Positions 32,711-36,595 of a DNA stretch of 64,000 nt are shown piece after piece (position 1 is the first letter of the stretch; each line of letters begins with the position of its first letter). The stretch is from NCBI GenBank assembly GCA_028821515.1, contig JAPPGA010000068.1, positions 21,790 through 85,789 on the forward strand, written 5' to 3'. A model generated the notes under the pieces. It did no database searches and was not told where the DNA came from. It saw nothing but the letters and a program-made list of their open reading frames with translations. The DNA is from Gammaproteobacteria bacterium (GTDB lineage Bacteria; Pseudomonadota; Gammaproteobacteria; Pseudomonadales; Azotimanducaceae). A program made the position numbers and the translations under genes.

Positions 32711-33955
32711 TCAGCTCTGGGCGAACTCCGGGTAGGCCTCGATGCCCGTCTCGGAAATGTCCGCACCGACCTCTTCGTCTTCTTCGGCGAGGCGGATGCC
32801 CATCGTGAACTTCAGGATTGCCCACACCGCCAGGCTCGCGAGGAAAACCCAGCCGAAGATGCCGACGATACCGGTCAACTGGCCAGCGATGGTCGCATCG
32901 GGATTGTTGAAGACCACGGCCAGGATGCCCCATATGCCCGCCACGCCATGCACGCTGATGGCGCCCACCGGATCGTCGATCCTGAGTTTGTCGAGGAGGA
33001 CGATGGAGGGGACCACGATCAGGCCCCCGACCGCGCCGATGATCATCGACCAGAACGCCGTTCCGTTCAGCGGGTCCGCGGTGATAGAGACGAGGCCCGC
33101 GAGGGCGCCGTTCAATGCCATTGTGAGGTCGGCCTTGCCGAACCAGATATGGGCCAGGATCAGGGCCGCGACGAGGCCGCCGCAGGCGGCGATATTCGTG
33201 TTCACGAACACCTGTGCGACCGCGTTCGCCTCGTCGATGTTGGAGAGCTTCAGCTCGGAACCACCATTGAAACCAAACCAGCCAAACCACAGTACGAACA
33301 TGCCGAGCGTGGCCAGAGGCATGTTGCAGCCGGGGATCGCGTTGACGCGTCCGCCGGGGCCGTACTTGCCGGCGCGGGGTCCGAGCAGGAGCACGCCGGC
33401 CAGCGCCGCCGCCGCACCGCACATGTGCACGATGCCGGATCCCGCGAAGTCGGAGTAACCCGCTTCCGAGAGCCAACCGCCGCCCCAGGTCCACATCCCC
33501 TGCACGGGATAGATGAGCCCGGTCAGCACGACAGCAAAAATCAGGAACGCCCAGAGCTTCATGCGCTCCGCTACCGCCCCCGACACGATCGACATGGCCG
33601 TCGCGACGAACACAACCTGGAAGAAATAGTCGGACCGCTTCGAGTAGTAGGTGTCCCCGCCGCTCGCGAGCGTGTCCGCAACCGTATTCTCCGCGCCGAT
33701 GAGCGTGCCGAAGCTCGGCAGAATCGCGCCCGCGTCCACGTTCTCGTACATGATGTAGTACCCGAACAGCAGGTACATGATGCACGCGATGGAGTAGAGC
33801 GAGACGTTCTTCGTCAGGATCTCCGCCGTGTTCTTGGCGCGGACCATGCCCGCTTCCAGCATGGAAAAGCCGCACGCCATGAACATGACGAGCACGCCCA
33901 TCACCAGAAAGTAAAAGGTGTCTAGTGCGTAGTTGGTTTGGATCAAGTCTTCCAC
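32711..33955 (-). CDS. amtB: Ammonium transporter AmtB
   Basis: AmtB is a trimeric inner-membrane channel for ammonium. 414 residues with 11 membrane helices; no cleaved signal is obvious (MEDLIQTNYALDTFYFLVMG). The twin histidines of the pore are in SGIVHMCGAAAALAGVLLLG and GAISVHGVAGIWGILAV. The outer substrate gate region FVLWFGWFGFNGGSELKL is typical. The gene follows glnK by 35 bases. GlnK plugs AmtB when nitrogen is plentiful. A sigma-54 promoter with NtrC-like sites precedes the operon (35153-35367). Confidence 0.97.
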   Translation of the reverse strand: MEDLIQTNYALDTFYFLVMGVLVMFMACGFSMLEAGMVRAKNTAEILTKNVSLYSIACIMYLLFGYYIMYENVDAGAILPSFGTLIGAENTVADTLASGGDTYYSKRSDYFFQVVFVATAMSIVSGAVAERMKLWAFLIFAVVLTGLIYPVQGMWTWGGGWLSEAGYSDFAGSGIVHMCGAAAALAGVLLLGPRAGKYGPGGRVNAIPGCNMPLATLGMFVLWFGWFGFNGGSELKLSNIDEANAVAQVFVNTNIAACGGLVAALILAHIWFGKADLTMALNGALAGLVSITADPLNGTAFWSMIIGAVGGLIVVPSIVLLDKLRIDDPVGAISVHGVAGIWGILAVVFNNPDATIAGQLTGIVGIFGWVFLASLAVWAILKFTMGIRLAEEDEEVGADISETGIEAYPEFAQS

Positions 33956-33990: not shown

Positions 33991-34338
<348 letters not shown>

Positions 34339-34352
34339 TCACTCATAGTTGG

Positions 34353-35039
34353 CTACATGCTTTTTGAAATCGAAAAAACCAGGCGGAGCTCGCAATCGGC
34401 ACCGCAGACTTCTTCCTCCAAATTCGTCCCAACGACGGCGAGACCGAGGTCTGCACCTCCGATGGGAATCGTCAGCGTGACACTATAGTCCATGTAGCTG
34501 TCCTCGTCCGGTCCACCAACCTCTTCCGCCATGCTCATCCCAACCTGGAAATCGAGACTCGCGGCATCGGTCGGTGCCCAGCTATAGCCGATGTAGGGGT
34601 ACAGGAACGATGGCCCGCCCGCACCGAGGTATTCAGGGGAATAGTTGACGCCCAGGGTGATGGCGCCGATTCCGATGGAACCAGCGATTTCCATGTAGTC
34701 CAGGCTGTCCCCCTCGCTCGGATACTCGAAGCGAATGACGCTGACATCGAAGGTGGTGCCATTACCGAGTTCACCCCCGTAGCCTGCGTAGAGATCGATC
34801 TCCGTGCTCGCATCGTCACCGTATTTCAGGTTGGACGCCCAGGTGCCGATGTAGAAGCCGGATTCAAACCCGTAGTCGAATCCACCCTGGATCGCCGGGT
34901 CGCGGGTCGTCTGGGACCAACCCCGGAAGGAGTAGTCCGTGGCGACCGTGACGTTGCCTGAGATCTCTCCCGCGGCAGCTCCCGTCCCGGTCCAAATGGT
35001 CATGAACGCTGCTGAGAACGCTATCGCTATCTTTTTCAT
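34353..35039 (-). CDS. TorF-family putative porin
   Basis: This 228-residue outer-membrane beta-barrel has a signal peptide (MKKIAIAFSAAFMTIWTGTGAAAG) and alternating strands such as SGNVTVATDYSFRGWSQT, YIGTWASNLKYGDDASTEIDLYAG and YMDYSVTLTIPIGG, features of the Gcw_chp/TorF family. Genes of this family often precede glnK-amtB, and the product is thought to let ammonium or small nitrogen compounds cross the outer membrane. That function is inferred. Two Cys near the end (EEVCGADCELRL) are unusual and could form a disulfide. Confidence 0.85.
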   Translation of the reverse strand: MKKIAIAFSAAFMTIWTGTGAAAGEISGNVTVATDYSFRGWSQTTRDPAIQGGFDYGFESGFYIGTWASNLKYGDDASTEIDLYAGYGGELGNGTTFDVSVIRFEYPSEGDSLDYMEIAGSIGIGAITLGVNYSPEYLGAGGPSFLYPYIGYSWAPTDAASLDFQVGMSMAEEVGGPDEDSYMDYSVTLTIPIGGADLGLAVVGTNLEEEVCGADCELRLVFSISKSM

Positions 35040-35152: not shown

Positions 35153-35168
35153 AGCACTAATCGTGCCA
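35153..35168 (-). promoter_or_regulatory. Sigma-54 promoter of the porin-glnK-amtB operon
   Basis: On the minus strand TGGCAC-GATTA-GTGCT matches the consensus TGGCAC-N5-TTGCW at ten of eleven fixed positions. GG and GC are exactly ten bases apart, as sigma-54 requires. Transcription would start near 35141, about 100 bases before the porin ATG. Confidence 0.78.
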
Positions 35169-35328: not shown

Positions 35329-35345
35329 TGCACTATCGTTGTGCG
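35329..35345. promoter_or_regulatory. NtrC-like binding site 1
   Basis: TGCAC-TATCGTT-GTGCG has the 5-7-5 layout of the NtrC consensus TGCAC-N7-GTGCA, with one mismatch at the last base. It lies about 195 bases upstream of the predicted sigma-54 start. Confidence 0.68.
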
Positions 35346-35350
35346 GATTT

Positions 35351-35367
35351 CGCACCACGGAAGTGCG
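35351..35367. promoter_or_regulatory. NtrC-like binding site 2
   Basis: CGCAC-CACGGAA-GTGCG is a 5-7-5 palindrome with its centre 22 bases from site 1, about two helical turns. That would suit cooperative binding of two NtrC dimers on one face. Confidence 0.65.
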
Positions 35368-35467
35368 CCTGGATACCCGCGGTAGTACTCAATTCTCCGC
35401 CGATTGCGCAGTTTTCGAACTGCAACCGCAGTAGCATTGGGCCTGTCGGAACCTTCGCGCCGAGACG

Positions 35468-36595
35468 ATGCGTCGAGACGATTTGTCGCTTTTCTGCGAA
35501 ACGATCTCCCAAGGCCTGGGCAAGGTGGCGGCGCGTTTCGTTCGGGACATGGTCAGCGGGATCCATAGCTCGCGCTCCGTGCGATTGATGGATATCGCCC
35601 GGATTCTCGACGAGAACATCCCCCTGCACGCAACCCACAAGCGCCTCAGCCGTAACCTGGCCAACACCGAGACGGGGCGCAGGGTGGCCGAGAACCTGAT
35701 GCAAGTGGCGTGTGCCCGGGTCAACGACAACACGCGATTGCTCCTGCAGTTCTTCGACCTCGAGAAACGCTACGCGGAAAAGATGGAGTTTCTCTCGCCG
35801 CTTGGCGACGACGGCGAGGGGCCACCCAAGCGTGGCTACAGGCTGTGCGAAGTCATCGCCAGTGACGCCGGCAGCACCGCATTCCATCCCATCGCGCTTC
35901 GGCCCTGGTCGGCCCGGGCGCCGAACTCGGGGGCAGGCGAAGTTCCGGCGCTCATTCGAGAAGTGAGGCGCGCAACGGGTGGAAAGGGCCTCATCGTCAA
36001 TCGCTCCCCGGTACCGGACCCGGCGCTTCTGCTGGAACTCGCGCAGGATCCCGACTGCCGGTTCGTGTTGAACCAGCACGACGACGTCGAACTCATCTAC
36101 CGTCGCCACCAGTACACGGGTTCCGAACTGGCCGAGCGGTGTTCCACACCCTACGCCACAACGATGTACAAGCTCTGGGACGACACCGACTACGCGGTGT
36201 TCTGCCACTTCGGATACCTCCCCGTGCGACTGCCCGATTACCCCGACCGGCCATTGTTTCTCGTGGTGGTGCGTTTCGACCTGCAGCACGGCACGTATCA
36301 GACTCCACGCTTTCTGCTGCTGACGTCCGAACCCATGCGCCGCAACCGGCTCGTGCTGTCGCAACTCGTCGAAGCCTTCCTGTCGCTCGAACAGATCGAG
36401 AGGACGAACTCCGCGCTCAAGTCACAGTACCGGCTGTCCACCGTACAGGTGCAAAAATTCGACCGGCTGAAGACCTTGCTCGCGCTGTTCGAGTGCGCGT
36501 GCCACTGGGCCGCACTGGACTCAACCGCGCTGCGGACCGGTCCCGACTTCGCGTTCACGCCACATCCCGACAGGGAACTGCAGCCCTACTTCTAG
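35468..36595 (+). CDS. IS4-like DDE transposase relative, catalytically degenerate (possibly domesticated)
   Basis: The intact 375-residue ORF follows the layout of IS4-type transposases: an N-terminal region with LHATHKRLSRNLANTE, then LEKRYAEKMEFLSP, GYRLCEVIASD, and FVLNQHDDVELIYR. LFLVVVRFD and a C-terminal helix (LVEAFLSLEQIERTNSALK) follow. In active relatives the first Asp sits in an I-D-x-T/G-D strand before the 'YA.KME' motif; here it reads LLLQFFDLEKRYA. The second lies in 'v-D-R-g-g-D-R'; here it reads LIVNRSPVPDP. Only the C-terminal Glu seems kept. No terminal inverted repeats are seen. A domesticated DNA-binding role is inference. Confidence 0.62.
   Translation: MRRDDLSLFCETISQGLGKVAARFVRDMVSGIHSSRSVRLMDIARILDENIPLHATHKRLSRNLANTETGRRVAENLMQVACARVNDNTRLLLQFFDLEKRYAEKMEFLSPLGDDGEGPPKRGYRLCEVIASDAGSTAFHPIALRPWSARAPNSGAGEVPALIREVRRATGGKGLIVNRSPVPDPALLLELAQDPDCRFVLNQHDDVELIYRRHQYTGSELAERCSTPYATTMYKLWDDTDYAVFCHFGYLPVRLPDYPDRPLFLVVVRFDLQHGTYQTPRFLLLTSEPMRRNRLVLSQLVEAFLSLEQIERTNSALKSQYRLSTVQVQKFDRLKTLLALFECACHWAALDSTALRTGPDFAFTPHPDRELQPYF

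Follow-up and report, generated by a model that had tools for sequence, protein, structure and literature searches.

The locus described here raises the question of why a protein resembling an IS4/Tn5-type transposase should persist as an open frame beside an ammonium-transport operon after its catalytic residues have changed. The gene (35468-36595, +; 375 aa) is the sole copy in its own genome and lies in a 64-kb stretch of DNA, called the window below. A first-pass annotation had described the protein as IS4-type, catalytically dead, free of flanking inverted repeats and retained by selection for a non-catalytic role next to NtrC-like sites, and had taken it as a single oddity. The description stands in most respects, except for the last.

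No Pfam model matches the window protein, and NCBIfam returns only IS1634/IS4 matches, all of them sub-threshold. Its catalytic columns were identified through the intact relatives L126, L128 and L103, together with Thermus and Deinococcus plasmid transposases, which anchor the DDE positions of the alignment. A profile of intact relatives matches the Tn5 transposase with an E-value of about 1e-18, and Tn5 residues D97, D188 and E326 fall in the DDE columns. Homology along the transposase core, as expected of IS4/Tn5 descent, is present. In the window protein, Gln occupies the first catalytic Asp position (codon 94, 35747-35749, +; Tn5 D97) and Asn the second (codon 178, 35999-36001, +; Tn5 D188), and Glu is kept at the third (codon 311, 36398-36400, +; Tn5 E326). 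The first column holds Gln in both orthologues as well (G003 and G005), and the second holds Asp in G003, which is 95% identical, and Glu in G005. Within the YREK signature, Tyr is replaced by F304 and Arg by L307, with E311 and K318 retained.

Terminal inverted repeats flanking the window gene were looked for and not found, and none was found at L106 either; the intact insertion sequence L126, in comparison, has perfect ones of 18 bp. The window gene hence lacks both marks of an active IS4-type element, an intact DDE and YREK set and flanking terminal repeats, in agreement with the first-pass annotation. PF01609 matches in the same genome were set aside, the best of which (L108) reads by eye as an IS1182/IS5-like element. 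An AlphaFold2 model built from three sequences reached a pLDDT of 34.5 and was too poor for a fold search, so an RNase H-like fold is predicted from homology only. A 343-aa antisense frame with a TTG start (35333-36364, -) overlaps the gene; it was not accepted as a gene, since long antisense frames are common in GC-rich DNA.

Rather than an isolated oddity, the protein is one member of a family. Of the 207 genomes of the taxonomic family, 43 gave matches in a profile search, for a total of about 55 homologues, although the match in G399 is weak and possibly false. Genomes of genus g14 carry two to five copies, and those elsewhere mostly one. Low-scoring matches in G068, G197 and G220 were discarded, being located by eye in ComM/Mg-chelatase-like proteins. 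Beyond the taxonomic family, matches are scarce: a class-wide sample of 369 genomes yielded only two others, and a phylum-wide sample of 399 genomes yielded ten, several of them fragments. The full-length matches in the phylum-wide sample are catalytically intact. Within the taxonomic family, searching the 207 genomes turned up no relative with intact catalysis. Among viral contigs no relative was confirmed, and among plasmids none was confirmed for the window protein itself. Most of the genomes are assemblies, many of them probably metagenome-derived.

None of the 54 alignable family members retains a complete D, D, E triad. The Glu is lost in 51, the Arg of YREK in 53 and the first Asp in 43. 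The family profile picks up the intact L126, itself a PF01609 match, at 324 bits, and a single branch with support of 100/99 separates the sampled dead members from five intact relatives. Mean pairwise column identity is 0.36 overall, 0.18 around the second Asp position and 0.56 in the N-terminal region. This conservation pattern is inverted relative to that of a working transposase. Family-wide conservation peaks in a segment that in the window protein covers residues 15-66 (...IARILDENIPLHATHKRLSRNL; 35510-35665, +). By analogy with Tn5, it is presumed to be the DNA-binding part, a role that is inferred.

On the other side of the intergenic region, a divergent gene encodes a Gcw_chp family protein (34353-35039, -; Pfam PF09694, E 1.7e-36). 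It is followed by 33991-34329 (-) and 32711-33955 (-), which from their sequences we take to be glnK, encoding a PII protein, and amtB, encoding an ammonium transporter. The NtrC-like sites reported by the first-pass annotation are indeed present as two GCAC-N7-GTGC elements, GCACTATCGTTGTGC (35330-35344, +) and GCACCACGGAAGTGC (35352-35366, +). About two such sites are expected in the entire window, and these two fall within 35330-35366. The first is also present in G003, where the equivalent of the second is GCACCAAGGAAGTGC, and the same region of G005 carries GCACCAAATTGGTGC. A sigma-54-like promoter element, TGGCACGATTAGTGC (35154-35168, -), faces Gcw-glnK-amtB, and its GG-N10-GC pattern is retained in both genomes. 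Together, the NtrC-like sites and this element explain nitrogen control of the operon without the dead gene. A footprint comparison of the window-clade promoter revealed no convincing operator.

The two orthologues found, in G003 (95% identity; JAPOYI010000009.1) and G005 (73%; OX638346.1), occupy the same place, with Gcw-glnK-amtB on one side and a block of cytochrome c, amidohydrolase and APC permease genes on the other. The position beside amtB, which had been proposed as a check, is hence kept in both. Only three of the nine genomes of the window genus carry the gene. Five sister genomes retain Gcw-glnK-amtB without it, which implies either a single gain in the window clade or loss in the others. 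In these genomes (G007, G004, G001, G008 and G002; loci L145-L149), the dead gene's place, upstream of the operon, is taken by a second PII (glnK-like) gene.

The shared divergent region, with its two NtrC-like sites and sigma-54-like element, and the place retained in three genomes would suit a window protein acting specifically as a nitrogen-responsive regulator of glnK-amtB. This proposal is unlikely. Control of glnK-amtB is already explained by the NtrC sites and the sigma-54 promoter, the five sister genomes have the operon with a second PII gene in place of the dead one, and homologues elsewhere adjoin unrelated operons. A specific nitrogen role of the window protein is not shown.

Across the taxonomic family, most homologues adjoin TonB receptors or catabolic genes. 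Across genera, the dead-gene locus is kept in g21 and, in part, in g22 and g24. A divergent TonB-dependent receptor gene is a frequent neighbour of the dead gene in g14 and g37. A member of the main receptor cluster is adjacent at 15 of 56 loci, and is upstream and divergent at 13 of these 15. Of the five dead genes in G052, a genome of 3.7 Mb with 28 plug-domain matches, four are next to a TonB receptor (p about 3e-7 under random placement). Relationships among receptors and among dead proteins disagree in places: the receptors at L078 and L079 are 74% identical and their dead proteins belong to different subclades, whereas those at L073 and L080 are 43% identical and their dead proteins are sisters. 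The pairing has therefore been remade at times and is not merely the result of co-duplication. Co-duplication as the full cause of the association was rejected; it fits some pairs, but these two reshuffled cases and L082 with g37 speak against it. The TonB receptor loci (L080, L081, L101 and neighbours) often include FG-GAP/ASPIC-UnbV and TPR proteins, and in genus g32 (L054-L058) two PEP-synthase-like genes flank the dead gene.

Expectation-maximisation from random starts over 35 upstream regions produced the de novo motif A.TTC(C/A)CCCA(A/T)AATT, with A.TTC(C/A)CCCA(A/T)A as its shorter form. Its likelihood gain was 119.6, against 59-66 for four dinucleotide-shuffled sets. Two clade sets run separately gave their motifs independently: TTCACCCAAAA for g21/g22/g24 and TTCCCCCAAA for g14/g37/g28/g32, also written TTCACCCA and TTCCCCCA. 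Clade motifs scored on the promoters of the other set lay above controls (p 5e-4 and 3e-3), and the top discriminative k-mer, out of about 150,000 overlapping tests, had p 1.1e-9. Because the promoter sets share ancestry, these p-values are not fully independent.

The same core occurs in the terminal repeats of intact relatives from four lineages (CAGGACTTTCCCCAAAAA, CTGGCGTCTCCCCATTTTTTCA, CAGGAGTCTCCCCATTTTTTTAC and CAGGGCTTTACCCAAAACTCC). Such repeats, of about 18-24 bp, are present at L126, L103, L132 and L135. L126 is an intact insertion sequence of 1462 bp from a genome of another class (G882), in which CAGGACTTTCCCCAAAAA at both ends coincides with the limits of other copies of the element. 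Fragments related to L126 and L127 of the same genome occur in G1003, G1010 and G911. A direct search with the 18-bp end of L126 gave only mild enrichment (Mann-Whitney p 0.002), so the argument relies on the motif discovered de novo. Motif sites are found in both orientations, and some promoters hold an inverted pair; the sites are thus not simply a left-over left end.

Putative end-like operators are a property of the family and not of the window gene's own promoter, which lacks the motif (best score -0.5), as does that of the G005 orthologue (2.2). The motif is likewise missing from the promoters of L102, L095 and L076. At L053 (G010), the dead gene is preceded, at about 141 and 122 nt, by two direct repeats of the form TGCTCA(A/G)TCATAT(C/A)TA, which may be an operator that has diverged in the lineage closest to the window clade.

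Genome-wide, exact motif matches are rare, numbering 25 in 12 genomes, against five for a reversed control. Six fall in the dead gene's own promoter. The other 19 include six upstream of TonB receptors, two upstream of PEP-synthase-like genes and about six inside coding sequence. TonB receptors and PEP-synthase-like genes also occur as neighbours of dead genes at other loci. The window genus shows no excess (four matches against three for the reversed control). The genome of the window has two matches, one of which, AGTTCCCCCAAAAA, precedes a DUF6151 gene and has an ECF sigma/FecR pair on its other side. The same site separates the homologue L077 in G052 from a divergently oriented DUF6151 gene (39% identical). 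The single match in G005 precedes a TonB receptor.

These matches also bear on whether the motif belongs to the dead proteins at all. An unrelated regulator could own it, with the dead proteins under its control and engaged in another task, DNA-structural or RNA-binding. Sites ahead of genes without an adjoining dead gene, and dead genes without the motif, including that of the window, would be expected in such a case. We nonetheless regard it as improbable, given that in four lineages the terminal repeats of intact relatives of these very proteins match the motif and that the N-terminal region, the expected contact with transposon ends, is the most conserved part of these proteins. The resemblance to ends would equally suit an inhibitor comparable to Tn5 Inh, a role open to a dead protein that occupies the ends of active relatives, or pairs with those relatives, and so blocks their movement. 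The prospects of this explanation are poor: no intact relative to inhibit was found in the 207 genomes, and the sites stand singly or in pairs at the promoters of uptake genes instead of flanking elements.

Selection has acted on these genes. Omega for the window gene is 0.15-0.20 against G003 and 0.13-0.23 against G005, with dS in the window clade up to about 1.2; the dN/dS comparison suggested for the orthologues thus falls well below 1. Most other clades give 0.07-0.28. Genus g32, at 0.4-1.5, suggests relaxed or shifting selection. One dead-gene copy (L107, G035 C41) is disrupted, with parts left in separate frames. Open frames persist across dead homologues that are about 30% identical. 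A domesticated transposase is expected to stay under purifying selection at a fixed place despite having lost its catalytic residues, and this is what is seen here. A recently dead insertion sequence, whose transposase pseudogene is decaying and has yet to accumulate frameshifts, can be set aside almost entirely, as its clear IS4/Tn5 ancestry, the g32 ratios of up to 1.5 and the disrupted G035 copy are outweighed by the low window-clade omega at such dS, by frames left open at such divergence, by a clade that is catalytically dead throughout and by loci conserved in g21/g22/g24.

The first-pass proposal of selection for a non-catalytic role is therefore supported by low dN/dS, clade-wide loss of catalysis, N-terminal conservation and end-like promoter sites in many homologues. 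None of the outcomes that would have refuted it (IS ends, dN/dS near 1 or an intact catalytic Asp pair) was found. The reading that we prefer is that the family consists of domesticated IS4/Tn5-type transposases turned into transcription factors that read end-derived operators, to which we assign a probability of about 0.68. Its foundations are the observed loss of catalysis, purifying selection, common ancestry, conserved positions and a motif matching the ends of intact relatives. Binding of the proteins to the motif, and an effect of such binding on transcription, are inferred without binding or expression data. The regulatory role of the window member is inferred in turn from its family and from selection. 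It might act on the promoter region shared with Gcw-glnK-amtB or on the motif upstream of the DUF6151 gene elsewhere in its genome.

Under this preferred reading, one IS4/Tn5-type transposase would have lost DNA cleavage in the ancestor of the bacterial family or early in the family's history. Its descendants would have retained the end-recognition part and become sequence-specific transcription factors. Their putative operators would be variant forms of the ancestral terminal inverted repeat (A.TTC(C/A)CCCA(A/T)A), located in the promoters of the dead genes themselves and in those of TonB-receptor, PEP-synthase-like and other uptake or catabolic genes. We favour, with somewhat more reserve, the broader history in which a single ancient transposase gave rise to an expanding regulator family, old ends serve as operators, specificity has drifted between clades (TTCACCCA, TTCCCCCA) and the products act as local, swappable uptake switches. 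If true, bacteria would have a regulator family derived from a DDE transposase, with an operator lineage that can still be traced. Sequence alone reveals the intact relatives, the dead family, the ancestral ends and the present operators, which makes the path from jumping element to gene switch directly testable in its steps.

Eukaryotes provide documented cases of transposases that became regulators, and the bacterial transposon-derived case is TldR. No bacterial regulator family derived from a DDE transposase was found in the literature searched, which left out most subscription papers. The intact relatives of the dead family align over the core with the Tn5 transposase, so that the catalytic columns are identifiable; the dead family differs in lacking a full DDE triad and in occurring mostly as single copies at conserved loci. 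Tn5 Inh and the Tn5 transposase are made from the same gene. Like Inh (PDB 1b7e), the dead proteins would be transposase-fold proteins without transposition, but no active partner of theirs was found and their sites lie in promoters. TldR proteins descend from TnpB, whose nuclease activity has been lost. They are transposon-derived, RNA-guided transcription factors of bacteria (PMC13418256). Both they and the dead family represent dead descendants of transposon proteins acting, in the latter by inference, as regulators beside their targets. However, the dead family does not descend from TnpB but from IS4/Tn5-type DDE transposases, and recognition of end-like DNA is inferred to be direct instead of RNA-guided. 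ZBED and other eukaryotic regulators derived from transposases (PMC3606216) similarly illustrate how domesticated DNA transposases become regulatory proteins, although ZBED proteins stem from the hAT family in vertebrates, whereas the family described here is bacterial and of IS4/Tn5 type.
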